A DNA stretch of 64,000 nt from Saccharothrix violaceirubra. Its GTDB lineage: Bacteria; Actinomycetota; Actinomycetes; Mycobacteriales; Pseudonocardiaceae. Of the stretch, positions 8,698 through 30,709 are shown piece by piece. The stretch spans positions 5,766,001-5,830,000 of the forward strand of contig NZ_JACHJS010000001.1 in assembly GCF_014203755.1 (NCBI RefSeq), in the 5' to 3' direction. The notes beneath the pieces were generated by a model that searched no databases, was not told the DNA's origin, and was given only the letters and a program-made list of their open reading frames with translations. The translations under genes and the position numbers were made by a program. How positions within the stretch are numbered: position 1 is the stretch's first letter; each line of letters opens with the position of its first letter.

Positions 8698-8770
8698 GCC
8701 TCCGTAGCTCAGTGGAGAGAGCGAGGGACTTCTAATCCCGAGGTCGCAGGTTCGAATCCTGCCGGGGGCG
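8698..8770 (+). tRNA. tRNA-Arg (anticodon UCU)
   Basis: A full cloverleaf can be drawn. The acceptor pair is GCCTCCG/CGGGGGC, the D stem GCTC/GAGC, the anticodon loop CTTCTAA with anticodon TCT (8731-8733 region), and the T arm GCAGG-TTCGAAT-CCTGC, with discriminator G. The outermost anticodon-stem pair is an A/G mismatch. No CCA is encoded. It decodes AGA, a rare codon in this GC-rich genome. Its 3' end abuts a decayed integrase gene, marking it as a former integration site. Confidence 0.95.
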
Positions 8771-8776
8771 CTCTGC

Positions 8777-14182: not shown

Positions 14183-14194
14183 GGTGCCGGAAAC

Positions 14195-14236
14195 GGGACT
14201 TGCCGGAGCGCGGATGCCTGTGCCCCGGCAAGTCCC
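14195..14236 (+). terminator. Hairpin after the membrane-protein gene
   Basis: GGGACTTGCCGG (14195-14206) and CCGGCAAGTCCC (14225-14236) form a perfect 12-bp stem with an 18-nt loop, 12 nt after the stop codon. No T tract follows, as is common in actinobacteria. Confidence 0.65.
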
Positions 14237-14620: not shown

Positions 14621-15259
14621 TCAGCAGTAGACGGAGGACAGGTCCTCGAACACCGCGCGGTTGAGCCGGAAGGCCACGTTGGCCTCCTCGACCAGCTCGT
14701 CCCGCTCGCCCTCGCGCCACGGCGCGGCGTCGAGCAGGGCGCGGTAGTGGTCGCGGAACGGCTTGGGCTTGGCGACCTGGTCGAAGACGTAGAAGCGGAC
14801 GCCGTCGTCCTCGAAGCCGTAGATGTCGCGCATCCTGCGGTGGATGACCTGACCGCCGGAGAGGTCGCCCAGGTAGCGGGTGTAGTGGTGGGCGACGAAC
14901 GCGCCCCGACTGGTGAAGCACACCTCGTGGAGCCGGTCCATGTAGGCCCGCGTCGCGGGCAACGGCTCGACCCGCCAGTCCGCGCCGAGCAGGTACGCGA
15001 GGTCCCGCGCCAGGGCGTCACGGCGCAGCAGGCCGTCGATCACGAACGCGCCGACGACCGGGTCGTCCCGCCACGTCTCACCGGCGTTCTCCAGCACGTC
15101 GTAAAAGAGGTAGGTCTGGCCGAGCAGCCCGGCGTACGCCTCGCGCCCCAGCCGTCCGCCCAACAGCGCCTCGACGAACACGGACCGTTCGGCCCGCTCG
15201 TGCTCGTCCCGCGTGCCTGACCGCAGCCGCGCCGCGAAGCCCTCGTCCACCGCAGTCAT
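14621..15259 (-). CDS. Heme oxygenase, biliverdin-producing
   Basis: 212 aa, the normal size of HmuO/HO-1 type enzymes. The proximal heme-ligand region LRSGTRDEHERAE (His20) and the distal-helix motif YLGDLSGGQVI are intact, as are FYVFDQV and the C-terminal EANVAFRLN. It opens heme to biliverdin, CO and ferrous iron using electrons from a reductase, to recover iron from host or environmental heme. A DtxR/IdeR box lies 14-32 nt upstream of the ATG, so iron repression is predicted. No heme transporter gene is adjacent. Confidence 0.95.
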   Translation of the reverse strand: MTAVDEGFAARLRSGTRDEHERAERSVFVEALLGGRLGREAYAGLLGQTYLFYDVLENAGETWRDDPVVGAFVIDGLLRRDALARDLAYLLGADWRVEPLPATRAYMDRLHEVCFTSRGAFVAHHYTRYLGDLSGGQVIHRRMRDIYGFEDDGVRFYVFDQVAKPKPFRDHYRALLDAAPWREGERDELVEEANVAFRLNRAVFEDLSSVYC

Positions 15260-15272
15260 CGCCCACCATTCT

Positions 15273-15291
15273 TAAGGGTTGCCTAACCTAA
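15273..15291 (-). promoter_or_regulatory. DtxR/IdeR iron box upstream of heme oxygenase
   Basis: TAAGGGTTGCCTAACCTAA matches the 19-bp consensus TTAGGTTAGSCTAACCTAA at 16 positions. A further partial repeat AACCTAAG (15291-15298) extends it. In other actinobacteria Fe(II)-loaded DtxR/IdeR/DmdR binds such boxes and represses iron-acquisition genes, which fits the gene downstream. Confidence 0.85.
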
Positions 15292-15415
15292 ACCTAAGTC
15301 AGACTTACGGGCGAAACCAGCGCGATTTTCCGGACGGATCCGGCACGGTGTGTGACAAAGAATGATCTTCTTGCCCCGTCACGGGCATCATCGGCCGCCT
15401 CTTAGGCTGACACGC

Positions 15416-15805
15416 ATGATTTTCTACACGGATGCCGAGAGCCGGACCCTGCGCACGGCGGTCTTCGGCGTGATGCTGCTGGTCTCCCACGCCGACCCCG
15501 GTCCCGTGATCGAGGAACGCCACGCCGGGCTGCGGGCGCTGACCAACCTCTCCGCGGAGCTGCGCGGCGTCCTGCACGCGTCGCGCGTGGACCTCTCCGG
15601 CGTCGCCGAGGCCGACCTGGAGACCCTGGTCCTGGATGCGCTCCGTGACGCGGTGAAGATCCTCGCCGCGAAGGCGCCCACCGAGGCGGCGACCTTCCCC
15701 GCCGCCGTCGAGGCGATCTGCCACGAGGTCGCCGCGGCCGACGGCGTGGTGGCCGAGGTCGAGACCGCCGTCATCGCGAAGGTCAGAGCCGCCCTGGCCG
15801 GGTGA
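15416..15805 (+). CDS. TerB-like tellurite-resistance fold protein
   Basis: 129 aa, all helical, beginning MIFYTDAESRTLRTAVFGVM. The C-terminal half has the TerB/DjlA-like acidic pattern ICHEVAAADGVVAEVETAVI, which in the family coordinates metal between helices. TerB-like proteins are associated with envelope stress and tellurite resistance, but isolated copies have no established role. TAGGCT lies 7 nt before the ATG (leaderless pattern). The mannosyltransferase gene follows after 15 bp in the same direction. Confidence 0.65.
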   Translation: MIFYTDAESRTLRTAVFGVMLLVSHADPGPVIEERHAGLRALTNLSAELRGVLHASRVDLSGVAEADLETLVLDALRDAVKILAAKAPTEAATFPAAVEAICHEVAAADGVVAEVETAVIAKVRAALAG

Positions 15806-15820
15806 CGGTACCGTTCGGGC

Positions 15821-16534
15821 ATGCCCAAGGTCGTGGTCGTCGTACCCACGTACAACGAGCGTGAGAACCTGCCCGTGCTCGTCGGGCAGCTCCTCGCGCT
15901 CGACGTGCACGTGCTGGTCGTGGACGACAACTCACCCGACGGCACCGGCGAGGTGGCGGACAAACTGGTCGCCGACGCGCCGGGCCGCGTCGGCGTCCTG
16001 CACCGGACCGCGAAGGACGGGTTGGGGCGGGCTTACGTGGCAGGGATGACCCGGGCGTTGGACGAGGGCGCGGACGTGGTGATCCAGATGGACGCGGATC
16101 TGTCGCACCCCGTTTCCGTCATTCCGCTGATGGTGTCCACGGTGCTCGAATCGGACGTGGTGCTGGGGTCCCGATATGTCACCGGCGGGTCCACGGCGGC
16201 CGAATGGCCCTGGCATCGGAAGGCTTTGTCCGCCTGGGCGAATTTCTACGTCAACGCGGTGCTGCGGTTGGGGGTTCGGGACGCGACCGCGGGGTTCAAG
16301 GCCTGGCGGGCTTCCGCGTTGCGGGCCATCGATCTCGGGTCGGTGCGGAGCAACGGGTACTCGTTCCAGGTGGAGATGAACCACCGGGCGGTCCGGGCGG
16401 GGCTGCGGATCGCGGAGGTGCCGATCCGGTTCGAGGAGCGGACGGAGGGGGCGTCGAAGATGAGCCTGGGGGTGCAGGTGGAGTCGGCGCTCACGCCGTG
16501 GAAGTTGTTGCTTGGACGCGGCAAGTCGAAGTGA
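15821..16534 (+). CDS. ppm1: Polyprenol-phosphate mannose synthase, catalytic domain (GT2)
   Basis: 237 aa. The GT2 nucleotide-binding motif VVDDNSPDGTGE, the DxD-type motif QMDADLSHP and the later GSRYVTGG and DATAGFKAWR match dolichol/polyprenol monophosphomannose synthases. It transfers mannose from GDP-mannose to polyprenyl phosphate on the inner membrane face, supplying lipid-linked donor for lipoglycans and protein O-mannosylation. It lacks the acyltransferase/Lnt domain fused to some mycobacterial versions. TACCGT lies 6 nt upstream of the ATG (leaderless pattern). Codon use turns strikingly G/T-rich from about codon 65 onward. Confidence 0.9.
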   Translation: MPKVVVVVPTYNERENLPVLVGQLLALDVHVLVVDDNSPDGTGEVADKLVADAPGRVGVLHRTAKDGLGRAYVAGMTRALDEGADVVIQMDADLSHPVSVIPLMVSTVLESDVVLGSRYVTGGSTAAEWPWHRKALSAWANFYVNAVLRLGVRDATAGFKAWRASALRAIDLGSVRSNGYSFQVEMNHRAVRAGLRIAEVPIRFEERTEGASKMSLGVQVESALTPWKLLLGRGKSK

Positions 16535-16856
16535 CTTTTGGTGATGTTCGGGCAGCCGGGAGTCTGCGGCGGAGAGCTTTGAAGCGGCGCTCGCCGCTGG
16601 GCAGGCCGCCAAGGGGAAGGCAAGTGCTCGTGTTCTCCCCGCATGGCCTGCCAGAGGCAACCACACGCGGAGAACACGGGCTCTCGGTGTGGGCCGGCGC
16701 CCCCGGCTTGGGCGGTGGGCGGGACCCGACTTGAGCGGTGCGGGGCCTCTGGCCGGGTGGCTGTGAGCGCGCCTGGGTGCGTGGTCCTGCTTGGGCGGCC
16801 GTGGTTCCACCGTGGAGGTAGCCTCCGAACGTTGCTCACGTTCAGGAGGCTTTGCG
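16535..16856. other. Intergenic region after ppm1 with long inverted repeat
   Basis: No gene is seen in 322 bp. GTGTTCTCC (16630-16638) and GGAGAACAC (16669-16677) form a stem that extends outward to 12 bp with one G-T pair (16627-16680), enclosing a 30-nt loop; it may be a terminator. The plus strand is strongly G-rich. AGGAGG at 16844-16849 is the ribosome site of the next gene. Confidence 0.55.
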
Positions 16857-17351
16857 GTGGCGGTTGGTGGCAAGGGTGTCGATGCGGAGCGGCTTGATCG
16901 TGAAGCGCGGGAGTTGTTCCGGCAGTTGACGCCGGCGCCGGTGACCGGGCACGACAAGGACGGGCGGCCGTTGAGCATTCCGCCGGGTGAACGTCTCGCG
17001 GAGATCGGGCGGCGGGCGCGGTTCATCGCGGTGAGTGACGCGTTGGCGCGTGCGGTGGTGGTGATTCTGGGGCGGGAAGGCGTGCCCGCTGCTGTCGGGC
17101 ATGTGCAGGTCGACCCCGCGGCTTCCGGGGACGAGCAGGTTTTGGGACTGTTGCTCGATGTCGGCGGGGTTGCCTCGGTGGTTCCGTTGCGGCCCGGTGA
17201 TCCGTTGTTGCGGGGGTATGCGGCGGTCGACGGGGTGATCGATCTGGTCGGGCGCGAGCTTGCCTTTTCCGTCGATCTCGTGGCCGAGGACGACGGGTGG
17301 GTGGGTGCCGAGGCGGTGGCGGCGGGGTTGTTGCGTGCACGCACAGGTTGA
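16857..17351 (+). CDS. Hypothetical protein
   Basis: 164 aa from GTG 16857, chosen for the AGGAGG placed 7 nt upstream. The sequence opens MAVGGKGVDAERLDREARELF and contains a middle segment RARFIAVSDALARAVVVILGREGVPAA and a hydrophobic beta-rich second half. There is no signal peptide or clear membrane span. I do not recognise a family. It belongs to the same G/T-rich patch as the end of ppm1 and the two genes that follow. Confidence 0.6.
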   Translation: MAVGGKGVDAERLDREARELFRQLTPAPVTGHDKDGRPLSIPPGERLAEIGRRARFIAVSDALARAVVVILGREGVPAAVGHVQVDPAASGDEQVLGLLLDVGGVASVVPLRPGDPLLRGYAAVDGVIDLVGRELAFSVDLVAEDDGWVGAEAVAAGLLRARTG

Positions 17352-17441
17352 TGCGGTAACGCAACTGATTCGCTAAGGTGCGGTGTGCCGCGCGGGTCCG
17401 GAGCGGGCCTGCCCGACGATCACCGAGGGGTGGATCTGTCG

Positions 17442-17669
17442 ATGTCGTACACGCTGGTTCTCCGCACTGCCGAGTTCGACCGGGCGGTTGTCGCGGCCGG
17501 GTACTCGTCGGTCGACGACTTCGCCGGCCGGGTCGGACTGCCGGTCGAGGAGGTCGGTGTCGTCCGGGGTGGTGGTGAACCCTCCACGGAGTTCATCGCG
17601 GAGGCCCTGGTCGCGTTGGCTCCGGTGACGTTCGCGAATCTGTTCGAGATCGTGGATCGACCTTTGTAG
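17442..17669 (+). CDS. Small HTH-like protein
   Basis: 75 aa (MSYTLVLRTAEFDRAVVAAG) with a predicted helical arrangement YSSVDDFAGRVGLPVEEVGVV that resembles a phage or Xre-type DNA-binding domain followed by a short helix pair. The ATG at 17442 has GAGGGG about 11 nt upstream. An alternative is GTG 17385, in frame, 5 nt after a TAAGGT hexamer, adding 19 residues. Function unknown. Its TAG stop supplies part of the promoter hexamer of the next gene. Confidence 0.55.
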   Translation: MSYTLVLRTAEFDRAVVAAGYSSVDDFAGRVGLPVEEVGVVRGGGEPSTEFIAEALVALAPVTFANLFEIVDRPL

Positions 17670-17679
17670 TGTCGGGGCG

Positions 17680-18573
17680 ATGGGCCGATTGCACGATGAC
17701 GAGTTCGCTGTCGACGCCGCACTTGTGCGAAGCCTTGTGCGGCACCGTTTTCCCGGGTTCGCCGACGTCGAGCCGGTGCCCGTGTCGTCCTCGGGTACCG
17801 ACAACTTCCTGTTCCGGCTCGGGGACGGACTGGTGGTCCGGGTGCCTCGGACGCCGGCCGCGGCCCGGCTGATCGACCTGGAGAACCGGTGGTTGCCGGT
17901 GCTCGCGGCGCGGCTTCCCGTCCCCTTGCCCGTTCCGGTGGGGGTCGGGGAGCCGTCCGACGACTTTCCCTGGCCCTGGGCGGTGTCGCGGTGGATCGAC
18001 GGGGTCAATCCGGTCGACGACCTCGACGATCCGGCGGGACTCGGGCGGGATCTCGCCCGGTTCGTGGCGGCGTTGCGGCGGGTTCCGGTCGACGGTGGGC
18101 CGCGCGGGATGCGGTCCGGGGCGTTGAGCGGTCGTGACGGTGACGTGCGGGCGGCGATCGCGCGGCTTCGCGGCGATGACGGGGTCGACGTGTCCGCCGT
18201 GTCCGCCGTGTCCGCTTTGTGGGACAAGGCGATGTCGTTGCCCGTGTGGGACGGGCCGGACATGTGGGCACACGGGGACCTTTCGCCCGGCAACGTGCTG
18301 GTGCGGGACGGGCGGTTGGCGGCCGTGCTCGACTTCGGGCTCATGGGGATCGGGGACCCGACCGTCGACCTCGTCGTGGCGTGGAACCTGCTTCCCGCGC
18401 CGGGGCGTGCCGCCTTCCGGGACGTGCTGGGTGTCGGCGACGACGACTGGGCGCGTGGGCGGGCGTGGGCGTTGTCCATCGCGTTGATCCAGTTGCCCTA
18501 TTACCGGGACACCAATCCGGTTCTCGTCGCGAACTCGCGGCACGTGATCCGCCAGGTCCTCGCGGAGGGATGA
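17680..18573 (+). CDS. Aminoglycoside/choline-kinase-like phosphotransferase
   Basis: 297 aa. The APH fold is shown by the N-lobe GTDNFLFRLGDGLVVRVPR, the catalytic loop HGDLSPGNVLV (His, Asp and Asn in place, near residues 205-215) and the metal-binding LDFGLMGIGDP. It should transfer phosphate from ATP to a small molecule hydroxyl. It may inactivate an antibiotic, but most solitary copies in actinomycetes have unknown substrates. TAGTGT 7 nt before the ATG overlaps the upstream stop codon (leaderless pattern). A short in-frame repeat encodes VSAVSAVSA near residue 170. Confidence 0.85.
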   Translation: MGRLHDDEFAVDAALVRSLVRHRFPGFADVEPVPVSSSGTDNFLFRLGDGLVVRVPRTPAAARLIDLENRWLPVLAARLPVPLPVPVGVGEPSDDFPWPWAVSRWIDGVNPVDDLDDPAGLGRDLARFVAALRRVPVDGGPRGMRSGALSGRDGDVRAAIARLRGDDGVDVSAVSAVSALWDKAMSLPVWDGPDMWAHGDLSPGNVLVRDGRLAAVLDFGLMGIGDPTVDLVVAWNLLPAPGRAAFRDVLGVGDDDWARGRAWALSIALIQLPYYRDTNPVLVANSRHVIRQVLAEG

Positions 18574-18695
18574 ATTCGACCCCTGTATATATTCCATGCC
18601 GCTCGTCCGGTGAACGTGACCCGAACGGCCCCGTTGTGGGCCGGTCGGGGCGCGGAGGATGGACTCATGTCCACCGCCGCCGGAATACGGCGCCC

Positions 18696-19511
18696 ATGAC
18701 GGCACTCGTCGACGGCGCCGATTACGCGAGATTGCTGACCATCGTCGAACAACGGGCCGGCCGGTACGCCGAGGACCTCGAGAGCGTCCTCGCGCGGGCC
18801 GGGTTGCGCGGCGAGGAATCGCGACTGCTCGACGAATTCGAGCAGTGCGTGTCCGGTGTGCTCGACCACTACCCGGCGCGGCGCCGGCGGGCGTCGCACG
18901 AACTGCTCTTCCGGCCGTTCTACGAAACCCGCCAGGAATCCGTCGACAGCGAACGCCGCCGCACGCTGCTCGTCGCGCTGATGGCCGCCGAGGTCGAGGC
19001 CCAGGGGCCGCTGCGGCTGACCATGGCACAGAACAAGGACCTGGCCGAGATCCTCGAACGGCTGGGTGTCGACTGCGCGGCCGAAGGGCTGTGGCTGCAC
19101 GCCGCCGAGGCGTTCGAACGCGCCGCCGAGACCCACCTGCTCACCAACGACCACGCCGCCCGCGACCGGTGCCTCTTCCTCCAGACGCGGGCACGACACC
19201 GGATCGAGCAGCGGCCCGCACGCCGCGCCTTCCTCGCGTTCTCGGCCGTCACCTGCGGCTACGGCTACCGGCCCTACCGGCTGCTGTGGTGGGTGCTCGT
19301 CCAACTCGTCGCGTTCTGGCTCACGCTCTGGCTGGTCACCGACGCCCTCACGCCGTACAACCTCTACCTCGCGGCCGTGAACTACCTCAACCCGGCGGGC
19401 ACCGAACAGGCGTCCGGTGCGGTCAAGGCCGTGCTCGTGGTGGAGAGCTACTCGGGTGCCTTGTCGCTCAACGTGTTCTTCGCCCTGCTCGTCCGCCGCT
19501 GGTTCCGCTAG
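18696..19511 (+). CDS. Membrane protein with helical cytosolic domain and channel-like C-terminus
   Basis: 271 aa. Residues 1-175 are soluble and helical, without a recognised motif. A hydrophobic helix at about 195-215 and a second at about 245-267 follow. The second, VVESYSGALSLNVFFALLVR, resembles the end of a two-helix ion-channel pore domain, though no TVGYG selectivity filter is present. The ATG at 18696 is the first in frame. It is convergent with the SCO2521-family gene and the two share a CTAG at 19508-19511 that serves as TAG stop on both strands. A functional link is a guess from position. Confidence 0.6.
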   Translation: MTALVDGADYARLLTIVEQRAGRYAEDLESVLARAGLRGEESRLLDEFEQCVSGVLDHYPARRRRASHELLFRPFYETRQESVDSERRRTLLVALMAAEVEAQGPLRLTMAQNKDLAEILERLGVDCAAEGLWLHAAEAFERAAETHLLTNDHAARDRCLFLQTRARHRIEQRPARRAFLAFSAVTCGYGYRPYRLLWWVLVQLVAFWLTLWLVTDALTPYNLYLAAVNYLNPAGTEQASGAVKAVLVVESYSGALSLNVFFALLVRRWFR

Positions 19512-20467
19512 ACCAGCCGGGACTCCTGCCACGCGGACAACGTCGTGATCGACACCTGGTCCCGCATCCACGCCACGTTCTGGTGCCACGCCGTGCTGAA
19601 ACCCGGCTCGCGCTCCAGGTCGTCCCACAGCGGCCGGAGCACCGGGTCGACGTGCTTGCCGGGCAACCACAACCGCACCAGCAGGCTCAACGCCGCCCCG
19701 AGCACGCGCATCGGGTCGGCACCCACATCCACGTCCCGTTCGGCTTCCTCGACCACCGCACCCAACGTCGTGTACAGCCAGTCGTGCAACGCCAGGTCCT
19801 CGCAGAACACCACCGCGGCGGACGCGGCCTCCGGCGGCACGACCAGGTCCACGGTGCGCTGCACGTCGTCGTCGATGTGCAGGTGCACCGACGGCCGCAC
19901 GTCCGGTTCGACGACGGCGTTCCACCGCAGCCGCGTCGGCCGGGCGCGCAGTCGGGTCCGGTGGTCGAGCTGCGGCCGGCCCTGCACCGCGGCCAGCAGC
20001 CGCTGGCACACCGAGCCGAGGTCCAACGTCTCCGGCACGCGCACCGCCCGCTTGCTGCCGCGCACCACCTGCTCGGGCACCGAGTTGCCGAGCACGTCGA
20101 GCACGCCGCGCCGGCGCGCGTAGTGCGACCACGCCCGGCGTTCGCGGTACTCGACCCACTCGCAGCTCGTGCGCGCGGACGCCTGGAGCACCATGCCGCC
20201 GACCACCACGGCGTGCGAGGCGACCGTGCCGATGCCCCGTGCCCGCGCCTGCGGTTCGGTGGCCAACGCGCAGTCCACGCCCACCACCGAGTCCGGGGAC
20301 ACGGTCCGGTTGATCGGCCGGTCGGTCGCCACGACCTGGCGTCCCGGCCGCAACGACAGCAGGTCGACCACGGACTTGCGGGGCAACGGCAGCGAGGTGT
20401 GCAGCAGGCTTGTGCGCACCTCGCCGAGGATCACCACCCCAGGACTCACCACCCCGGGACTCACCAT
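19508..20467 (-). CDS. SCO2521 family protein
   Basis: 319 aa, last gene of the SCO2524-2523-2522-2521 cassette. After a short N-terminus the sequence has LGEVRTSLL, a central VDLVVPP, and a helical C-terminus with WLPGKHVDPVLRPLWDDLE. No catalytic motif is visible. The start is uncertain: a 15-bp tandem duplication (GTGAGTCCYGGGGTG twice) after ATG 20467 encodes SPGVVSPGVV, and the GTG at 20434 (MVILGEVRTS with numbering from there) may be the ancestral start. The upstream gene overlaps it by 7 bp. Family assignment is from recognised sequence style and gene order. Confidence 0.75.
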   Translation of the reverse strand: MVSPGVVSPGVVILGEVRTSLLHTSLPLPRKSVVDLLSLRPGRQVVATDRPINRTVSPDSVVGVDCALATEPQARARGIGTVASHAVVVGGMVLQASARTSCEWVEYRERRAWSHYARRRGVLDVLGNSVPEQVVRGSKRAVRVPETLDLGSVCQRLLAAVQGRPQLDHRTRLRARPTRLRWNAVVEPDVRPSVHLHIDDDVQRTVDLVVPPEAASAAVVFCEDLALHDWLYTTLGAVVEEAERDVDVGADPMRVLGAALSLLVRLWLPGKHVDPVLRPLWDDLEREPGFSTAWHQNVAWMRDQVSITTLSAWQESRLV

Positions 20468-21468
20468 CTCGGCCCGGCCACGGGCGCGTCGATGAACACG
20501 TGCGACAACCGGGCGCCGAGCTGCGCGGGCACGAACACGCCCTCGCGTTGCGCCCGGTCCACGGTCTGCGCGATCACCGCCTCGTCCACGTCGAGGTGGT
20601 TGAGGATCACGTTGGTCGCGTGCTCGATGCCCAGGTAGCTCTGCGGCAGGATCGACGTCGTCCGGTACGCGGCGAACGGTGCCGGGTGCTCGGTCAACTG
20701 GATCACCGCGGGCAGGTCGGCCCACCGCTTGGGCCACGGGCCCGACCAGCGGCGCGGCTGCGCGACCGGCTCACCCTCGTGCCGCAACGCGCCCAGTCGC
20801 ATCAACTGCCACACCGCCGCCAGGAACGGGCACGACCACAGCCGCCGCTGACCGGGCGTGCCGTCGACGACCTCGGTGCGGTCCCGCCACAGCTCGACGT
20901 CGAGGAAGATCGAGTGGTTGCGCTTGCCGAACTCCACGGCGGGACGCCACTCCTCGCGCGGCATCATCGCCTGGCGGCCGGTGTGGTCGGCCGGCGAGCG
21001 CTCGCCGTTGCACAGCCACCCCGAGTCCTGCACCGGCGGGCGCGACCCGTTCGAGCCGACGGGCGGCTCGGGCAGCAGCATCGCGGCGGTCAGCTCGGCC
21101 AGCGGCACCCGGTCGGCCTCGGAGCAGCCCGCCTCCCGGGCCAGGTAGTCGATGCGCACGCCGTACTCCTCGGCGATCGACAGCACCCGGTCGACCACCT
21201 CCTCGGGCGCGGTGTCGGACCGGAAGTAGTCGTCGACCAGGAAGCACGTGCTCAGCCGCGGCCGGACGCCGTCGAGGTCGGCGGCCAGCGCCGACCGCGT
21301 CGCCTCCAGCCACGGCGCCACCTTGCGGAACTGGGTGCGGACGCGGTCGTCGCCCCCGGCCAGGTCCTCCATGTAGAAGTGCCCCACCTCGACCGAGAGG
21401 TGGGCCAGGGCCAGGTGCCGCGGCTCCGGCCGCGAACTCGCCTCGCTGTACACGGGGGTCGACGTCAC
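20461..21468 (-). CDS. SCO2522 family protein
   Basis: 335 aa from GTG 21468, which overlaps the upstream stop as GTGA and has GGAGGGG just before it. The N-terminal region HLALAHLSVEVGHFYMEDL and LSTCFLVDDYFRSD, then SYLGIEHATNVILNHLD near the C-terminus, are the recognisable features. The protein is soluble, with no membrane span or known catalytic motif. An acidic VDDYF and several conserved-looking His residues could form an active site, but that is speculation. It always travels, as far as I know, with the variant P-loop protein encoded immediately upstream. Confidence 0.77.
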   Translation of the reverse strand: MTSTPVYSEASSRPEPRHLALAHLSVEVGHFYMEDLAGGDDRVRTQFRKVAPWLEATRSALAADLDGVRPRLSTCFLVDDYFRSDTAPEEVVDRVLSIAEEYGVRIDYLAREAGCSEADRVPLAELTAAMLLPEPPVGSNGSRPPVQDSGWLCNGERSPADHTGRQAMMPREEWRPAVEFGKRNHSIFLDVELWRDRTEVVDGTPGQRRLWSCPFLAAVWQLMRLGALRHEGEPVAQPRRWSGPWPKRWADLPAVIQLTEHPAPFAAYRTTSILPQSYLGIEHATNVILNHLDVDEAVIAQTVDRAQREGVFVPAQLGARLSHVFIDAPVAGPRW

Positions 21469-22373
21469 ATCCCCTCCCACACCGCGTCGTCGGTCAGCCG
21501 GGTCGCCAGGTCGCGGAACGCCTCGACGGTCCCCGGGTTCGCGATCCGGGCCGAGACGTCGGACTCGGCGATGAGCTGCTCACGCCATTGCAGCACCGGT
21601 TCGACCGGCGTGGTGCCCAGGATCCGGCTGCGGCCGAGTTTGTTGTCCACGGCGAGCTTGCGCAGCTCCTCGTCGCACGCGTGCAGCCACGTGGCCTGGG
21701 CGGCGGTCTGGCCGGGGTTGTACTCCTTGAGGTTGGGCACGGCCACGCGCACGAACCGGGTCGCGTCCAGCAGCGCCTCCGGGTCGTGGCCGGCGCTGCG
21801 GCCGACCGACAGCAGGCCGCGGTCGCCGTAGACCAGGCCGTTGGCGGCCACGATGTGCTGCCGCGTCCAGCGGTGGAACACCAGCCAGCGGGCGGTGATC
21901 GCGCGCAACGCCGGGTGCGCGGTCGCAATCAGCGCCATGGTCAGCGCGTGCGAGCGGCCCGCGCTCAGGTCGACGACGCACACGTCGAACTCGCTGTCCA
22001 ACCGCGTGAACAGCTCGACGCAGCGCTGTTCGATCTCGTCGGAGGTGGCGAACTCGGCGCCGCCCCGGTCGCCGGGGAACAGCACCAGGCGGCCGGACCG
22101 GGCGTTGGCGCCGCGCAGGTCCGCGCGCGAGGTGTGGTGCCACACGTCGATGCCGCGCGGTTCGGAGATGCCGTCGGTGAAGTACGAGTGCAGGCCGTCG
22201 TGCTCGACGCCGCGTTCGGCGCGCGGGATCTCGAACACCGCGCCGGAGGTCGGCGAGCCGAAGTCGAAGTCCAGGTAGGCCACGTGCGAGCGTTGCGCGA
22301 GGTGGAACGCGATGTTGCAACTGGTCACCGAACGACCGGTGCCGCCCTTGTCGGACGAGGCGAAGACGAGCAC
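21465..22373 (-). CDS. SCO2523 family variant P-loop ATPase (MinD/ParA-like)
   Basis: 302 aa. The N-terminus MLVFASSDKGGTGRSVTSCN is a deviant Walker A of the ParA/MinD type in which the second lysine is Arg (DKGGTGRS, residues 8-15). LDFDFGSPTSGAVF is the Walker A' / switch region and VCVVDLSAGRSHALTM the Walker B side. Such proteins form ATP-dependent dimers that position cargo or partners. Here the Arg substitution suggests altered nucleotide handling. GTG 22373 overlaps the SCO2524 stop by one base (TAGTG), and its own stop overlaps SCO2522, so the set is tightly coupled. Confidence 0.85.
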   Translation of the reverse strand: MLVFASSDKGGTGRSVTSCNIAFHLAQRSHVAYLDFDFGSPTSGAVFEIPRAERGVEHDGLHSYFTDGISEPRGIDVWHHTSRADLRGANARSGRLVLFPGDRGGAEFATSDEIEQRCVELFTRLDSEFDVCVVDLSAGRSHALTMALIATAHPALRAITARWLVFHRWTRQHIVAANGLVYGDRGLLSVGRSAGHDPEALLDATRFVRVAVPNLKEYNPGQTAAQATWLHACDEELRKLAVDNKLGRSRILGTTPVEPVLQWREQLIAESDVSARIANPGTVEAFRDLATRLTDDAVWEGM

Positions 22374-24244
22374 TAGACACCCCTCGACGCGTCGTTCTGG
22401 GCCACGTCCATCTCGTCCAGGCTCAGCAGCGCGGCCAGCGCCAGCGCGTTGGCCGTGCCGGGCCGTTCGGTGACGACCTCGCGGGCCCGGCTGAGCCGGC
22501 GCTCGATCATGGTCAGCTCGGCGCTGCGCGCGGACGTGTCGTCCGAGTCGGAGTTGAGCAGCAGCCGGTTGAGCAGGTGTTCGGCCTCGTGCAGGGCGTC
22601 CTCGGCGCGGGCGCGCATGGACGCGCTGCGCAGCGGGCGTTCCTCGAACGTGCGGGCGCCGGTGATCAACGCCTCGACCACGCGCTCGGTCATGTACCAG
22701 GACGGGCGCCGCTCGACCGCCTCGGCACCGTCCCCGAACAGCACCGCGGCCGGGTTGTCCCACAGTCCGGGGGCGTCGCCGTCGCGGATGCGCCGCCGTT
22801 CCAGGTGGTCCATGGTCGTCTCGGCCAGGCGCATCAGCCGGTCGCGGGCGTTGCGGTTGACCGACAGCGCGGCGGCCTGGAGGCACCGCTTGAGCAGCAG
22901 CGGCGCGAAGTCGCGGGCGTACCAGTAGAGCTGCGGGCCGATGTCGGCCGAGCCGCCCAACGTCATCCGCACGCCGGGCACGTGCATCGCCACCGACGGG
23001 TCGTCCTGGGTGACGCGGCGGGTGATGCGACCGCGTTGGGCCAGCGCTTCGAAGACGGCGACCGCGCGGTTGAGGTCGTCGTCGGTGGCCTGGCGGGCCT
23101 CGAGGTCCTGCACCAGCACGGCGGAGACCAGCAGCGAGTAGTAGTCCGACTCCTCGCCGTCGGACGTGCGCCACGGGATGTCCTCCAGCGGCCAGGTCTT
23201 GCCGAACCGCGCGATCGTGGACCAGTAGCGCTGGGTCAGGTCCCAGCGGATCTGCAACGCCTCGGTGAGCCGGCGCTGCTCGTCGTCGAGCAGGTTCAGC
23301 TCGCGGGTGCGTGCCGACCTGAGGTCGTTGATGCCGTCGAGCGCGACCACGGTGGAGTACAGGTAGGGCCGCGAGTGGGCGACGCCCTGGACGGAGCCGA
23401 TCGTGGGCTGTCGGTCGAAGGCGCTGCGTTCGAGGTCGAGTTCGACCGGGGTGGCGTCGCGGACGATGCTCCAGCCCCAGCCGATCTCGAACAGCCGGCT
23501 CTCCTCCTCCAGGGTGCGGTCCGTGCTCACACCCACGCGTACGTCGTCGAGCAGTCGGGTGCGCACGCGCTGCAGGCGTTCGCGCAGCCGGTTGACCACG
23601 ACCGGGTCCGGGTCGTCGCCCTGGTTGACCATGGCGAGCATCGCGCTGCGCACAGGCGCGTCGCGGTCGTCGAGACCGACGGTGTTGACCACGAACGACC
23701 GCAGCAGACCGATCTGGGCCGCGGTCAGCCGGCGGCTCAGCGCGGCCTGGATGGTCTCGATCCGGCTCACCAGCGCGGGCCGGCGTGCGGCGTGCGGCTT
23801 GTAGACGTTCAGGAAGCCCAGTGCGGCAAGGCAGAGCGTGAGCGACAACGAGTACGAGTCGACCAGGCCGAGCGCGAGTTGTCGCTCGGTCGGCGGTTCG
23901 TCGCCGTCGGTGCCCAGATACCCACCGCCGCCGAAGTACGGCTCGCCGTCGCGGGTGTGCCGTTCCAGGTACTCCTCGACCAGTTCGACGACGCGGAACG
24001 GGACGACCCGCGGCTCGCCGAGGCGTTCGAGGGCCTTGGCCGCGTCCTCGGCGATCACGTCGGGTTGTTCCAGCGCGAGCGCCGACACCTCGGTGGCCGG
24101 GTAGAGCAGGCAGATGAGCTGCTCGGCGTCGCTGAGCGAATTCGAGTCCTCCCGGCCGCCCCACTGCCAGGCACCGTCGCGATAGGAGGACTTGACGACC
24201 GACCGCCAGATGTCCAGGATCTGCCGCCTCGGCTGAATTCTCAT
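22373..24244 (-). CDS. SCO2524 family protein
   Basis: 623 aa, opening MRIQPRRQILDIWRSVVKSS. The sequence is predominantly alpha-helical with no signal peptide. Notable stretches are LICLLYPATEVSALALEQPD, the SDYYSLLVSAVLVQDLEA region and a C-terminal helical bundle rich in Arg/Glu. No catalytic motif is recognised; it may be a scaffold or sensor for the P-loop protein. ATG 24244 matches the usual family opening; an in-frame extension upstream lacks a ribosome site. A TACGGT hexamer at 24303-24298 (minus) is a possible -10 for the cassette, giving a leader of roughly 45 nt. Confidence 0.8.
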   Translation of the reverse strand: MRIQPRRQILDIWRSVVKSSYRDGAWQWGGREDSNSLSDAEQLICLLYPATEVSALALEQPDVIAEDAAKALERLGEPRVVPFRVVELVEEYLERHTRDGEPYFGGGGYLGTDGDEPPTERQLALGLVDSYSLSLTLCLAALGFLNVYKPHAARRPALVSRIETIQAALSRRLTAAQIGLLRSFVVNTVGLDDRDAPVRSAMLAMVNQGDDPDPVVVNRLRERLQRVRTRLLDDVRVGVSTDRTLEEESRLFEIGWGWSIVRDATPVELDLERSAFDRQPTIGSVQGVAHSRPYLYSTVVALDGINDLRSARTRELNLLDDEQRRLTEALQIRWDLTQRYWSTIARFGKTWPLEDIPWRTSDGEESDYYSLLVSAVLVQDLEARQATDDDLNRAVAVFEALAQRGRITRRVTQDDPSVAMHVPGVRMTLGGSADIGPQLYWYARDFAPLLLKRCLQAAALSVNRNARDRLMRLAETTMDHLERRRIRDGDAPGLWDNPAAVLFGDGAEAVERRPSWYMTERVVEALITGARTFEERPLRSASMRARAEDALHEAEHLLNRLLLNSDSDDTSARSAELTMIERRLSRAREVVTERPGTANALALAALLSLDEMDVAQNDASRGV

Positions 24245-24447
24245 GGCCGCCATCCCGAAGGTCGCAACCCGCGCGAATGCGTCACGCGGCGTGGCGAACC
24301 GTAGCACGGCGGACGGCTTTCCGGGCCGCCATTCCAGCCGGTACGGCATGGTTTGTCCACGCGGGTCGCACCCCATGTCGAGCATTCCGCACAATTGCCG
24401 ACAAGGGACTCCCGAATGGAATTCCCAGTGAAAAGGAATAGGGCCGT

Positions 24448-25632
24448 TCAACAGCGACAACTCCACGGTTCCGACACGCCCGAACGACCTATGGTCACCA
24501 GTGCGGCGTGGGTGAGGAACGCCTCGCGCTTGCGCCGCTCGTCGACGACCCCGCACCGGCAGGCGACCGCGGCCGACGGCGGTTCGTCGTAGGCCATGCC
24601 CATGTAGCCGGGCGGGATGCCGAGGCCCTTCGCGATGTGGGCGAGCGTGTCGTACGCGTCGACCCGGCGGCCGTCGAGGACCTGCTCGACCTCGCCGCCG
24701 GTCTGGCCGGTCAACGCGGCGATGCGGGTGACCGGCACGCCGTGGTGGCGCAGCAGCCGGTACACCGTGCCGATGTCGCGGGACGCGAGCGCGTCGCGCA
24801 TGTCGTCGTGCTCCCACACGTCCGGGAGGTCCACTTCGGACTCCGGCCGCACCGCCCGCTCCGGCACCGCCGGGCCGGGCGCGGTGCTCGCGACCCACTG
24901 CGTCCACGCCCACTCCGGTTCGCCGTGGCACGGCGTGCCGTCGGTGGACAACGCCATGGCACGCACGGTTTCGCGGTAGCCGTGCGCCACGGCCGTCGCA
25001 CCGGGGATCGCGCACACCGAGCCCGTCAGGATGGCCGCGATCGACTCGCCCGGCGGACCGCCGCGCCAGTACAGCTCGAGTGCGTTCCCGGCGGGAACGC
25101 AGTGCAACCACAAGGCGCCGCGCCACAACGGCAACCGGCGCAGCACACCGCTCATCAACGCGACCGGCCCGCCGGGCGCCGTGGTCACCTCGCGCTCGTC
25201 GAGGTCCTCGCTCAACGCGAGGTCGACCCGCACCCCGGCGGCGACGGCCTGCCGCCACCGTTCCCGCGTCACGCCGAGCAACCGCACCTGCCCGTGCGCG
25301 GAACGCAGGTCGAGGTGATCACGGCCGGGAAAGGCCCGCAGCCCGGCCACCCCGCGCACCCGCCCGCCCACGATCGTCGGCAGGGCTTCGGCGAGCAGCC
25401 CGTCGAGCCCCGCGTCGTGGACATGCAGACCCGTCGCCCGCGGATCCGGCTGGACCCGGTGCACCAGGGCGGTGGGGCGCAACGGGTGGCCGCGTCGACG
25501 CAGACCCGCCATCGCCCGGTTCACCGCGAGCAGCAACGCGGCCTCCAGCCGATCCTGCCCCGCCGCCGCGGCGGCGGGCACGAGCGGACCGACGTCGGCG
25601 ATACCACCACTGCCCCGTTGTCTGCGCACCAT
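24448..25632 (-). CDS. HTH-domain protein upstream of the SCO2521-2524 cassette, truncated C-terminus
   Basis: 394 aa. Residues 1-270 are an unrecognised alpha/beta domain (LVHRVQPDPRATGLHVHDAG, LHCVPAGNALELYWRG). Residues 285-345 form an Xre-type helix-turn-helix: DIGTVYRLLRHHGVPVTRI, then GEVEQVLDGRRVDAYDTLAHI and GLGIPPGYMGMAYDE. The end, RRKREAFLTHAALVTIG, looks like the start of the linker that in larger HTH-TPR proteins leads into a repeat domain, but the frame stops after CRC. So the protein may be a truncated relative. ATG 25632 has no strong ribosome site. It is codirectional with the cassette, 203 bp upstream of SCO2524, and is a candidate regulator. Confidence 0.65.
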   Translation of the reverse strand: MVRRQRGSGGIADVGPLVPAAAAAGQDRLEAALLLAVNRAMAGLRRRGHPLRPTALVHRVQPDPRATGLHVHDAGLDGLLAEALPTIVGGRVRGVAGLRAFPGRDHLDLRSAHGQVRLLGVTRERWRQAVAAGVRVDLALSEDLDEREVTTAPGGPVALMSGVLRRLPLWRGALWLHCVPAGNALELYWRGGPPGESIAAILTGSVCAIPGATAVAHGYRETVRAMALSTDGTPCHGEPEWAWTQWVASTAPGPAVPERAVRPESEVDLPDVWEHDDMRDALASRDIGTVYRLLRHHGVPVTRIAALTGQTGGEVEQVLDGRRVDAYDTLAHIAKGLGIPPGYMGMAYDEPPSAAVACRCGVVDERRKREAFLTHAALVTIGRSGVSEPWSCRC

Positions 25633-26177
25633 GTTCGGGGTCTCGCCGGTGCACCGACAGCGTTTCTCCAAGATGCTGGACACCAATCCGGCCCTCCGGT
25701 CGACGTCGCCCGGACCGACGCCACCGCGTTCACGGACCGAAACGCGGAAGAGGCAGTGACAGCGGTGCGCGAACCGCGCTCTGGAGGCACCCGCTCCGTC
25801 CGGGTCAGGAGGAGCCTCGGCGGCAGCCGCAACTGCCGGTGCCGAAGCTACCGAAACAGCGCTGCGGATCGCGATCACACGAACGTGGGATTCAGCGCCA
25901 CCAACCCGGACACCGGACACCGACCCCACCGCCCCCTTGCCCCTCGCACACGCCTCCGACCTGCACCTTCGGCACCCTTCGCCCCGGTCGCACCGGCGAC
26001 ACGAAGGCCACCCCCGGCTCGACCCGGCCACCGACCACCCGACCACCCGCCCACACCGCCCCGGCCGGACCGAAAAATCCGAAGATTCCCAGGTCAGAAC
26101 CCGTTCGGGGGCCGGAAACTGTCGGCGTGCGCCGGTAGAATTCGAACAGAGGTTCGACAAGCGGAGGGGAGCCCGTC
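25633..26177. other. Intergenic region between divergent HTH and unknown genes
   Basis: 545 bp with no convincing gene; open frames here are arginine- or proline-rich shadows. From about 25900 to 26090 the plus strand is very C-rich and G-poor. Promoters for both flanking genes should lie here; TAGAAT at 26136-26141 precedes the GTG at 26178 by 36 nt, with GGAAAC at 26114-26119 as a possible ECF-type -35. No palindromic operator stands out. Confidence 0.5.
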
Positions 26178-26798
26178 GTGGAGCCGATCAGCGTCACCGC
26201 ACTGTCCTTCACCGAGTACGCGATGAGCGGTCAGCGGGGCCGGATCAGCATCGTCACCGAGCAGCGGAGCATCTACCTGGCCACCGACCCGTGGCCGTGC
26301 GGGTTCTACAACCCGATGCGCAACGCGATGCGCCGTGCCGCCAACTCGACCGACCCGGACGCCGAACTGGACCGGGCCGTGGAGTCGGCGCACCTCAACG
26401 GCCAGGAACGGGCGTTCCTGGAGCTGCGCGAGGGCTTCATGCCCTGGCTGAGGACGACCCGGGCCACCGGCGTACCGGTCGCCCCGACCCGCTGGCGGGC
26501 GGGCGACCTGGTGCTGAAGGTCCGCCCCCACCTGGGCCTGCGGCTGCCGGACGGTTCACTGGGCGCGGTCCTGGTGTACATGAAGGAGGCCCCGATGTCG
26601 CAGGAGGCGGCGAACGTCGGGCTGCGCATCCTGGAGCAGACGATGACCGACACCCTGCCGGGCGCCACGGCTTTGGTGCTGGACGCCCGCCGAGGCCGCG
26701 CGTTCCGGATGGCCAAGCGCACCAACCGCACGAAGCTGGACGCCCTGATCGCGGCCGAGGCCGCCGGATACGTGGTGCACTGGCGCATGAGCGCCTGA
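26178..26798 (+). CDS. Hypothetical protein
   Basis: 206 aa from GTG 26178, which has a strong GGAGGGGAG ribosome site 8 nt upstream. The sequence opens MEPISVTALSFTEYAMSGQRGR and includes WPCGFYNPMRNAMRRAAN and a duplicated-looking acidic/basic alternation. It has no membrane span or signal peptide. Around residue 105, WRAGDLVLKVRPHLGLRLPDG is beta-rich, and the C-terminus ends VHWRMSA. I do not recognise the family. It is a single gene between the HTH gene (divergent) and the amidohydrolase (convergent) and ends 99 bp before a 20-bp perfect hairpin. Confidence 0.7.
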   Translation: MEPISVTALSFTEYAMSGQRGRISIVTEQRSIYLATDPWPCGFYNPMRNAMRRAANSTDPDAELDRAVESAHLNGQERAFLELREGFMPWLRTTRATGVPVAPTRWRAGDLVLKVRPHLGLRLPDGSLGAVLVYMKEAPMSQEAANVGLRILEQTMTDTLPGATALVLDARRGRAFRMAKRTNRTKLDALIAAEAAGYVVHWRMSA

Positions 26799-26896
26799 CG
26801 TCGAAAGAGCCAACGGCCGGACGCGCAGTGGGGACCGCGCCCGCCGACAGGGGCCTGAACGAGCCACAAACCAGCGGTACCTGGGGGCTGGACACA

Positions 26897-26938
26897 CCGG
26901 CTTCCGGCCGCGGGACCAGTCCCGCGGCCGGAAGCCGG
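26897..26938. terminator. Perfect 20-bp inverted repeat between convergent genes
   Basis: CCGGCTTCCGGCCGCGGGAC (26897-26916) is exactly complementary to 26919-26938 across only CA. The resulting 42-nt GC-rich dyad lies between the stop of the plus-strand gene (26798) and the stop of the minus-strand amidohydrolase (27109). A bidirectional terminator is the simplest reading; no T tract is present on either side. The rest of 26799-27108 holds only the 45-bp repeat. Confidence 0.75.
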
Positions 26939-27021
26939 AAGCCGGGCAAGCGACCGCACACGACGGCGAAGGCCAAGACCCGGCGGTTCGGCGACCGGGC
27001 CAACAAGGCAGCGCGGTCAAC

Positions 27022-27066
27022 GGTGCCCGAGTGCACATTTCGCAGTGTCCGAACACACAACTCGCG
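27022..27066 (-). repeat. 45-bp intergenic repeat, copy A
   Basis: Read on the minus strand this segment is 41/45 identical to 32409-32453. Shared words are CGCGAGTTGTG, GACACTGCGAAAT, TGCACTC and GGCACC. It lies 43 bp beyond the amidohydrolase stop and reads in the same direction as that gene. Nothing in it looks like a coding sequence or a known operator. Confidence 0.85.
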
Positions 27067-27108
27067 GTGCCGAGTGCGTGCTTACGACACATCCCCAAAG
27101 AAAAAGAG

Positions 27109-28677
27109 TCAACCAAAAAGACCGTGAGGATCGAAAACGGCCCGACCCCCCACCACGGTGGCCAAAACCGGCACATCAGCAATCCGCCCGGCAGTCCGCG
27201 GATCATCCCCCAACACCACAAAGTCCCCCAACTTCCCCGAAACCAGACTCCCCAACTCACCCTCCATGTGACACGCATACGCACCACGCGTCGTATAGGA
27301 CAGCAGAGCCTCCGCCACGGAAACCCCTTCCCCCACCCCGATCACCCGCCCCGAAGACGAAGCCCGATCGACCATGAACTGGATCCCCCGCAACGGATTC
27401 CCATCAGCCACCGGCCGATCCGAACTACCCACCAACGTCAACCCGTGATCGAGGAACGACCGTCCCCGATACAGCCAGTCCTCCCGATCCGCCCCCATGA
27501 TCGCGGCATAGTCGTCGCCGTACGCATACAAGAACGCAGGCTGCACCACCGGAATCACGCCCAACTCCGCCATCGACACCAACTGATCCGGCCGCGTGAG
27601 ACCGGCGTGCTCGATGCGATGCCGGGCATCCGGCCGAGGACACACGGCCTGAGCCTCCGCCAACGCCGCCAAAGCGAAGTCCACGGCCCGATCACCGATG
27701 GCGTGCACGGCCAACTGCCACCCCGCACGGTGCCCGTCGACGATCGCGTCCCGCAGGTCGTCCTCGGTGTCGGCCAACATCCCCGACCCGGCCATCCCCA
27801 CATAGGGCCTGGTCAACGCCGCGGTCCTGGCCATCATCCCGCCATCGGTCCACACCTTGAGCGCACCGATCGACAACCGGGAATCGCCCAGACCCGTCCG
27901 CAACCCCAGCGGCAACGCCCGGCGCACGAGATCGGACGGATGCGCCCGGACGACAGCCAACTCCGTCGCGGAGACCATCAACTGCACCCGGATCGGCAGG
28001 TCCGCCCGCTGGTACGCGGCCACCTCCAACGGCGTGCTCCCGATCAGCCCACCCCCGACCCCCGCCTCGGCGGCCAGCACGATCCCTTGGCGCAGACACT
28101 CCCGCACGCCCGCCTCGATGTCCGCCGTCACCTCGTCCAACGGGTACGGCAGCCGCAAGGCCCGCACCGCGTTGTGCCCGGCTTCGGCCAGAAACCCGGT
28201 AAGTCCGTCGGCATCGCGCTGCGCCTGGGCGAGGACCGCCTCGGGCAGTCCGACCAGCAGGTCGCCGCTCACGACGCAGGCGTGGCCCGACAGGTCCTGG
28301 ACGAACACCTTGGTGCCCACCGTGTCCAGGTCGCGCGCGGTCAGCGGCCGGTCCAGGGTCCGGTGGTCGTAGCCGGCGGCCTCGAGCCAGCCGGCCTTCC
28401 TGGGCACGGTGCGCAGGAGGTCGAGGATCTCGGCGACGGTCGCGCAGTGCGTGACCGACACGGTCCGCGCCGCGCGGCCCGCCCAGGCGAGGTGGTTGTG
28501 CGGGTCCACGAAGCCGGGCAGGACGGTGGCGCCGTCCAGTCCGACCACCCGGCGGGCCGGGAGATCCGTGTCCAGTTCGACGATTCGGCCCTGCCACACG
28601 CCGATCGACCGTGCCGACGGGGTGTTCGGGTCCATGGTCAGTACTTGGGCGTCGACCAGCTTCAGGTCCAGGATCAC
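27109..28677 (-). CDS. Amidohydrolase-3 family metal-dependent hydrolase (YtcJ-like)
   Basis: 522 aa. The metal-binding HxH occurs in FVDPHNHLAWAG near residue 59, further ligands in WQLAVHAIGDRAVD and RIEHAGL, and the late Asp in SSDRPVADGNPL. The family hydrolyses amides, formamides or related bonds with one or two zinc ions; YtcJ-type members have poorly known substrates. TAGCCT lies 7 nt before GTG 28677 (leaderless pattern), and the divergent formyltransferase starts 77 bp away. The 3' half (27109-27900) has unusually G/T-rich codons. A formamide-type substrate would be an attractive link to the formyltransferase but is only speculation. Confidence 0.88.
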   Translation of the reverse strand: MILDLKLVDAQVLTMDPNTPSARSIGVWQGRIVELDTDLPARRVVGLDGATVLPGFVDPHNHLAWAGRAARTVSVTHCATVAEILDLLRTVPRKAGWLEAAGYDHRTLDRPLTARDLDTVGTKVFVQDLSGHACVVSGDLLVGLPEAVLAQAQRDADGLTGFLAEAGHNAVRALRLPYPLDEVTADIEAGVRECLRQGIVLAAEAGVGGGLIGSTPLEVAAYQRADLPIRVQLMVSATELAVVRAHPSDLVRRALPLGLRTGLGDSRLSIGALKVWTDGGMMARTAALTRPYVGMAGSGMLADTEDDLRDAIVDGHRAGWQLAVHAIGDRAVDFALAALAEAQAVCPRPDARHRIEHAGLTRPDQLVSMAELGVIPVVQPAFLYAYGDDYAAIMGADREDWLYRGRSFLDHGLTLVGSSDRPVADGNPLRGIQFMVDRASSSGRVIGVGEGVSVAEALLSYTTRGAYACHMEGELGSLVSGKLGDFVVLGDDPRTAGRIADVPVLATVVGGRAVFDPHGLFG

Positions 28678-28708
28678 CCTGCCCAGGCTAGCCAGGACGA
28701 GTCTGGGT

Positions 28709-28736
28709 TAGGGTTGGGTAACTTAGGCAAGCCTAT
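28709..28736. promoter_or_regulatory. Two overlapping DtxR/IdeR-like iron boxes
   Basis: Two 19-mers offset by 9 bp resemble TTAGGTTAGSCTAACCTAA: 28709-28727 (TTAGGGTTGGGTAACTTAG, 14/19) and 28718-28736 (GTAACTTAGGCAAGCCTAT, 13/19). The 9-10 bp offset is the one at which two DtxR/IdeR dimers bind opposite faces of DNA. They lie 19 bp before the formyltransferase ATG and 32 bp from the divergent amidohydrolase start. Confidence 0.72.
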
Positions 28737-28754
28737 GCAAGGAGGGGTCCGGGG

Positions 28755-29702
28755 ATGCGGGTCGTCATGTTCGGCTACCAGACGTGGGGGCACCGCACGC
28801 TCCAAGCGCTGCTGGACTCCGAGCACGAAGTGGTCATGGTGGTCACGCACCCCAAGAGCGACCACGCCTACGAGCGGATCTGGAGCGACTCCGTGGCCGA
28901 CCTCGCGGCCGAGCACGGGGTCGAGACGCTGGTCCGCGAACGGCCCGACGACGAGGAACTGCTCCGGCGGCTCAAGGAGGTCGCACCGGACGTCATCGTC
29001 GCCACGAACTGGCGGACCTGGATCCCGCCGCACGTCTTCACGCTGCCCCGCTACGGCACGCTCAACGTGCACGACTCGCTCCTGCCCGCCTACGCCGGGT
29101 TCTCGCCGCTGATCTGGGCCTTGATCAACGACGAGAAGGAGGTCGGCGTCACCGCGCACATGATGGACGAGACGCTCGACGCCGGTGACATCGTGCTCCA
29201 GCGCGCCGTCCCGGTCGGCCCGCGCGACACGACCGCCGACCTGTTCGCCAAGACCCTCGCGCTGTTCGGGCCGATCACGGTCGACGGCCTGGCCGAGATC
29301 GCCAAGGGTCGTACGGACTTCGTCAAGCAGGACCGGTCCAAGGCGAGCTTCTTCCACAAGCGCTCCGAGACCGACCTGCTCATCGACTGGACGTGGGAGG
29401 CCGACGAACTCGACCGGCTGGTGCGGGCGCAGTGCGCGCCGTACCCGCACGCGTTCACATTCCACCGGGGACGGCGGCTGGAGATCGTCGAAGCCGAGGT
29501 GTCCCAGGCGAAGTACGGCGGCACGCCCGGCCGCATCTTCTACCGCGAGGGCGACGGCGTGGCGATCGTCGCGGGCGCATCGGCCCGGCGCGGGCGGAAC
29601 CCCGGGTTGCTGGTGAAGAAGGTGCGCACGGACGACGGCACCGAACTGGGCGCCGCCGAGTACTTCACGCACATGGGCGGGTACCTCACGGGCCGGCCGT
29701 GA
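28755..29702 (+). CDS. Formyltransferase, methionyl-tRNA formyltransferase-like, siderophore type
   Basis: 315 aa. The N-terminal Rossmann-like formyl_trans_N domain has VMFGYQTWGHRTLQALL and the catalytic loop NVHDSLLPAY with TAHMMDETLDAGDIV; a formyl_trans_C domain follows from about residue 200. It lacks the usual Fmt N-terminus and sits alone, away from def/fmt. The sequence and the iron boxes upstream point to a 10-formyl-THF-dependent enzyme of the CchA type, which formylates N5-hydroxyornithine for hydroxamate siderophores. An AAGGAGGGG site precedes the ATG. No NRPS or monooxygenase gene is nearby, so the siderophore locus, if any, is elsewhere. Confidence 0.8.
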   Translation: MRVVMFGYQTWGHRTLQALLDSEHEVVMVVTHPKSDHAYERIWSDSVADLAAEHGVETLVRERPDDEELLRRLKEVAPDVIVATNWRTWIPPHVFTLPRYGTLNVHDSLLPAYAGFSPLIWALINDEKEVGVTAHMMDETLDAGDIVLQRAVPVGPRDTTADLFAKTLALFGPITVDGLAEIAKGRTDFVKQDRSKASFFHKRSETDLLIDWTWEADELDRLVRAQCAPYPHAFTFHRGRRLEIVEAEVSQAKYGGTPGRIFYREGDGVAIVAGASARRGRNPGLLVKKVRTDDGTELGAAEYFTHMGGYLTGRP

Positions 29703-30621: not shown

Positions 30622-30675
30622 GGTGGGAACGTTAGGAATCCCGTGTTCCCGGCACATCCGTCACGGGACCTGGAT

Positions 30676-30703: not shown

Positions 30704-30709
30704 CCGGTC

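Follow-up and report, generated by a model that had tools for sequence, protein, structure and literature searches.

What do the adjoining genes of the SCO2524, SCO2523, SCO2522 and SCO2521 families do, and which of their neighbors belong to the same system? To approach this question, we examined one copy of this cassette in a 64,000-nucleotide stretch of the Saccharothrix violaceirubra genome (the window; NCBI RefSeq assembly GCF_014203755.1, contig NZ_JACHJS010000001.1, positions 5,766,001 to 5,830,000 of the forward strand). The four genes lie on the minus strand in the order 2524>2523>2522>2521, and a gene for a membrane protein, here called M, converges on them from the other side. We found that SCO2521-2524 is a real, inseparable cassette in every sample taken and that M belongs to the system in the clade of the window. 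The relevant features are the following (bit scores against NCBIfam models, with cut-offs in parentheses):

22373..24244, minus strand: SCO2524-family protein, 623 amino acids (alternative start ATG 24253), first gene of the core and mostly unknown; NF040567, 757.9 bits (300)
21465..22373, minus strand: SCO2523-family MinD/ParA-like P-loop protein, 302 amino acids, with the motif DKGGTGRS; NF040564, 450.8 bits (200)
20461..21468, minus strand: SCO2522-family protein, 335 amino acids (alternative start GTG 21480); NF040566, 423.8 bits (200); structural model with a predicted local distance difference test score (pLDDT) of 85.3
19508..20437, minus strand: SCO2521-family protein, 309 amino acids (alternative start ATG 20467); NF040565, 310.5 bits (150); structural model with pLDDT 94.6
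19508..19511, no strand: CTAG in which SCO2521 and M both have their stop codon, read directly from the sequence
18696..19511, plus strand: M, convergent membrane protein, 271 amino acids, with a channel-like C-terminus in which LNPxG replaces the TVGYG filter; present at 37 of 81 loci

Since all four core proteins exceed the curated equivalog cut-offs of their NCBIfam families (310.5-757.9 bits against 150-300), we can exclude a chance origin of the match. These models give neither a function nor a membrane partner. The gene order, the family assignments and the shared CTAG agree with the initial annotation of this DNA, which had also read overlaps of 1 to 7 bp between the genes as strict co-translation. 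SCO2524 and SCO2523 do overlap by 1 bp (base 22373), and SCO2523 and SCO2522 by 4 bp if the latter starts at GTG 21468 (16 bp with the start at 21480). The 7-bp overlap between SCO2522 and SCO2521 requires ATG 20467, whereas the start favored by coding bias, GTG 20437, leaves a gap of 23 bp. Strict co-translation is an overstatement because other loci show anything between an overlap and a gap of tens or hundreds of bp at all three junctions, in part owing to uncertain gene calls. The spacing between SCO2521 and M ranges elsewhere from -4 to 438 bp. The description of the three proteins other than SCO2523 as lacking a recognized domain is outdated, given the curated NCBIfam families, Pfam family PF28097 on relatives of SCO2522 and the recognizable fold of the SCO2522 model.

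To compare the cassette across genomes, we used three samples. A pattern scan of a genome collection with two short patterns returned 351 species-level loci. The best 80 of these by similarity to the SCO2522 protein of the window were taken with flanks of up to 10 kb, which together with the window makes 81 loci. Genes were assigned by clustering of neighbors followed by a re-scan with profiles built for this analysis. Because of this selection the sample is rich in Nocardia and Streptomyces, and locus counts do not stand for independent events. The other two samples consist of 100 genomes from the family of the host and 198 genomes from its phylum. All four core genes are present at 81 of 81 loci, and at 78 of these they lie on one strand in the order of the window; at the remaining 3, SCO2521 is inverted beyond c5, a second type of membrane gene. 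In the family survey SCO2522, SCO2521 and SCO2524 each occur in 6 of 100 genomes, as does SCO2523 above its cut-off, and these are the identical six genomes (G000, G203, G208, G219, G257 and G290). Six further genomes contain only weak, sub-cut-off matches to SCO2523. The phylum sample contains SCO2522 in 4 of 198 genomes. The co-occurrence and order that the initial annotation had proposed to check are thus borne out for the four families. At four loci (L051, L071, L079, L088) additional copies or fragments of cassette genes are present close to the first cassette, which suggests that duplication may occur in Nocardia.

A membrane partner adjoins the cassette at 78 of the 81 loci: M at 37 and c5 at 41, with no locus containing both and three containing neither. 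The c5 proteins combine a transmembrane segment with a DUF6879 domain (20 of 22 members at E values up to 0.1). M and c5 are not a single family, as they lack profile similarity (HHalign probability 0.3%). The type of partner tracks the tree of the cassette itself. This tree was calculated from the four concatenated core proteins (80 of 82 candidates had all four) by a quick method with the LG+G4 model, and came with long-branch warnings. It separates an M side (38 rows, of which two have no partner) from a c5 side (42 rows) with a support of 100 in the Shimodaira-Hasegawa-like approximate likelihood ratio test. Only two changes of the partner label are required, one swap between M and c5 and one loss of M. 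The six cassette genomes of the host family comprise four with M and two with c5, so that the cassette type there is not set by the family of the organism; rather, the cassette keeps its own membrane gene. Strong M matches in the family survey are confined to cassette genomes (4 of 100), and ten weak local matches elsewhere concern the membrane-proximal part. The rule also fits five further distinct genomes, with c5 in G290, G208, G128 and G023 and M in G219. All of the six loci closest to the window by SCO2522 similarity (L031-L036) contain M. Among these seven loci only the core, M, SCO2525 and the generic neighbor clusters 11 and 14 recur in at least two, and 70 neighbor families are singletons. 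The link between the cassette and the convergent gene, which had been proposed from the window alone, therefore stands even though other neighbors hardly recur.

The M protein in the window contains one strong transmembrane segment, a hydrophobic C-terminus ending in FFALLVRRWFR, and, by alignment, LNPxG at the position of a pore loop; most M proteins share LNPx at the filter position. Potassium channels of the two-transmembrane type have their two helices on either side of a pore loop and carry TxGYG as their selectivity filter. M appears to resemble these channels (Ion_trans_2, PF07885) in its C-terminal layout, and one M relative matches the Pfam model at 1.4e-4, just below the cut-off. M differs from them in that TxGYG is absent from all 23 M proteins (0/23) and no scanned member reaches the Pfam cut-off. 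Weak Ion_trans_2 matches occur in 3 of 23 M proteins at E values up to 0.1; the M of the window is not among them and has no Pfam match to this family. Another small membrane protein (L106:14694-15284) contains a stretch, SGYGLRAWR, that resembles CGYGYRPYR in M. Together with the weak local M matches in larger proteins, this similarity hints at a wider membrane module.

We then asked what the core proteins themselves reveal. MinD and ParA ATPases dimerize in an ATP-dependent manner, hydrolyze ATP and contain a deviant Walker A motif with two lysines (KGGxxK[ST]). SCO2523 does not contain this motif, and the initial annotation had correctly read the P-loop in the window as DKGGTGRS with arginine in place of the second lysine (position 14). 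This substitution is not an oddity of the window copy, since 85 of 86 SCO2523 segments read KGG[TA]GR[ST], the remaining one being unreadable. Other features of MinD/ParA ATPases are conserved, namely the signature lysine in 79 of 79 proteins and the switch-I D-x-D in 78 of 79. SCO2523 shares the N-terminal P-loop region with MinD/ParA (SIMIBI) ATPases, but scores below the cut-offs for MinD, ParA, CbiA and the KGGVGR-variant model NF047398, the last with a weak match of 6e-10.

Structural models were calculated for SCO2522 and SCO2521. According to VIA-align the SCO2522 model appears to adopt a fold like that of class I aminoacyl-tRNA synthetases (aaRS), whose catalytic domain is a Rossmann fold. 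The HIGH and KMSKS motifs that characterize these synthetases are each absent from all SCO2522 proteins (0/67), which sets the family apart from the cysteinyl, arginyl and methionyl enzymes (CysRS, ArgRS, MetRS) and from MshC. Instead, E-x-G-H occurs in 67 of 67, and model and alignment place the invariant polar residues near strand ends. Pfam PF28097 covers all 120 SCO2522 relatives among the matches listed; its model gave no match in the Pfam copy scanned with the window proteins. Fold searches with the SCO2521 model gave no clear match.

Two further genes often accompany the cassette. SCO2525, an NNMT/PNMT-like methyltransferase, lies directly upstream of SCO2524 at 44 of 81 loci, with five changes on the core tree. 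It occurs in 4 of the 100 family genomes, all four among the six with a cassette, and the genome of the window has no member of this family (NF040568). SCO2525 is thus a dispensable accessory that was found only with the cassette. A GNAT gene is linked at 65 of 81 loci, and the window cassette adjoins neither gene. In the literature, the operon sco2521-sco2526 is assigned to the HupS regulon and SCO2525 is described as required for normal growth (PMC11472566) and as having a morphogenetic role (PMC6344877); PMC3017869 and PMC6344877 cite Gehring 2004 for this gene. Our searches of the open-access literature found SCO2521 named in PMC11472566, SCO2522, SCO2523 and SCO2524 unnamed, and no mechanism for the cassette.

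How may these components work together? The reading that we prefer, with a rough probability of one in three (0.36), is that the cassette encodes a membrane-docked, nucleotide-switched enzyme complex. SCO2521-2524 would form its obligate cytosolic core, with SCO2523 as a nucleotide-dependent assembly switch in which arginine replaces the second lysine. SCO2522, with its aaRS-like fold and its invariant residues at strand ends in place of HIGH and KMSKS, may contribute nucleotide or aminoacyl chemistry, and SCO2524 and SCO2521 could act as scaffolds or as partner subunits. Docking and output would both fall to the membrane protein, a channel-like pore in the case of M and a DUF6879 domain on a transmembrane anchor in the case of c5. 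A role in growth, development or stress control is more likely than one in phage defense. Several observations weigh against this proposal. The three loci without either partner (L084, L086, L089) do not fit a regular dock, although L089 is weak evidence because it is a 7-kb contig. Since there was a single swap, the distribution of M and c5 records one event and not many, and a common output of two such different proteins is a guess. Hydropathy predicts two transmembrane segments in 15 of 23 M proteins and one clear segment in 8, including that of the window; among 22 c5 proteins it predicts two in 7, one in 14 and none in 1. Foldseek matches to the SCO2522 model are weak (best E 0.0094), and profile comparison detected no similarity to CysRS (profile built from 24 of 30 fetched proteins) or ArgRS, which leaves homology to aaRS unsupported. 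Finally, the growth phenotype belongs to SCO2525, a gene that the genome of the window lacks.

A doubtful alternative is that the cassette is a nucleoside triphosphate (NTP)-dependent biological-conflict system for immunity or cell death, whose core senses invasion and whose membrane protein is an effector that forms pores or otherwise acts on the membrane. At six of the 81 loci the cassette is followed, on the side of SCO2521, by a large gene for a caspase-FtsK multi-ATPase, the window copy resides in a species-specific block at an apparent tRNA-Arg integration site (see below), and the distribution is patchy (6 of 100 genomes). Kaur et al. 2020 (PMC7159879) describe EACC1-caspase pairs as well as inactive MinD/ParA-like domains in such systems; the string SCO25 does not occur in their main text. 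The cassette proteins differ from those systems in that they show no match to caspase, MoxR, vWA or STAND. The caspase genes all occur in one Nocardia group of the core tree (L047, L050, L072, L084, L086 and L089; in five of the six a small gene of the 122-amino-acid type precedes them). The membrane partner changed once and not often, and Streptomyces-like loci have recurrent neighbors (families 13, 15, 16 and others at 17-21 of 33 loci), as expected of a settled locus. SCO2525, moreover, is tied to growth and development in the papers cited above. PADLOC 2023 left five of six proteins unmatched and gave one partial match to SCO2523 (2.3e-4 over a 40-residue stretch), so that we can eliminate identity with a described defense system. 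We can likewise eliminate plasmid or phage cargo, since SCO2522 has no match in collections of either.

That the genes form a biosynthetic or modification operon is unlikely, even though the predicted SCO2522 fold, the frequent linkage of SCO2525 and GNAT and the phenotype reported for SCO2525 are what such an operon would display. SCO2522 would activate or transfer an aminoacyl or nucleotide group, SCO2525 would methylate and GNAT acetylate a product (a small molecule, a lipid or a derivative of tRNA), and the membrane protein would pass or anchor it. Both modifying enzymes are dispensable and absent beside the window cassette, none of the 67 SCO2522 proteins has HIGH or KMSKS, and a MinD-like partner with an obligate helical protein is unusual for a pathway. 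Decidedly unlikely is a more elaborate form of membrane signaling, so far undescribed, in which the aaRS-like protein, devoid of adenylation motifs, produces or senses a nucleotide or aminoacyl signal under control of a MinD-like switch able to bind ATP but hardly to hydrolyze it; the signal would gate a pore with a degenerate potassium filter in one clade and a transmembrane DUF6879 protein in the other. Most improbable is a polarity or positioning system in which SCO2523, in the manner of MinD and ParA, moves or clusters the other components on the membrane or nucleoid. The superfamily of SCO2523, its conserved signature lysine and D-x-D, and hosts that by their names are mostly filamentous actinobacteria would suit this role. 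However, arginine at the second lysine position in every readable copy makes fast ATP cycling doubtful, and none of the recurring neighbor families was noticed to be ParB-, MinC- or MinE-like, although no search was aimed at these.

To return to the membrane-docked complex, the orphan cassette now has a first testable shape: a membrane protein that regularly accompanies it, a fold predicted for SCO2522, and a P-loop arginine that is general in the SCO2523 family. This matters because the two short patterns alone located the core at 351 species-level loci, some of them in Streptomyces, and because its operon neighbor SCO2525 is tied to growth and development. If the aaRS-like reading is true, SCO2522 would join MshC as a synthetase fold that has been put to another purpose. 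Cyclodipeptide synthases are a further case of this kind.

The genomic setting of the window copy is defined by two more features:

24448..25632, minus strand: helix-turn-helix (HTH) protein gene, a flanking gene outside the system
8698..8771, plus strand: tRNA-Arg(TCT), bordering the species-specific block (8772-24492) in which the cassette lies

This tRNA looks like an integration hot spot, because congeners have inserts of their own there, and the window cassette lies within a block specific to its species at this site. In G285 and G256 different inserts separate the tRNA-Arg flank from a copy of the tRNA 3' end. This copy lies about 300 bp from the ortholog of the HTH gene in G285, whereas 15.7 kb separate tRNA-Arg and HTH gene in the window, where a second copy of the 3' end was not found. 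G218 also has the end copy, its left flank being beyond the fetched stretch. In the window (8698-8999) the tRNA is followed by a decayed integrase end (PF00589, 4.4e-4, below the cut-off). Among the matches listed, those of region 9200-18600 to three congeners are scattered, with none near the flank.

The initial annotation had counted the HTH gene into the system, and had named absence of both this and the membrane gene beside other cassettes as evidence against its proposal. The gene is present as described, but it is unlinked. Of the two genes named, only the HTH gene is absent elsewhere (0 of the 80 other loci); 78 of the 81 loci, the window included, have either the membrane gene or an unrelated membrane protein in its place. 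Cassette-free G285, moreover, encodes an ortholog of the HTH protein (62%) in a region syntenic with window 24493-35346. We can therefore exclude the HTH gene as a cassette component. G218 and G256 have the flank in common with the window from position 26096 onward, but without a DNA match to the HTH gene at that place, so that this gene is itself variable. The C-terminal third of its product (about 263-384) matches a protein present in 93 of 100 family genomes, and it looks like a paralogue of this widespread regulator with a different N-terminus. Finally, two regulator/kinase-like gene pairs in the window (9888-11683 and 30710-32367) both fall into neighbor clusters 11 and 14.

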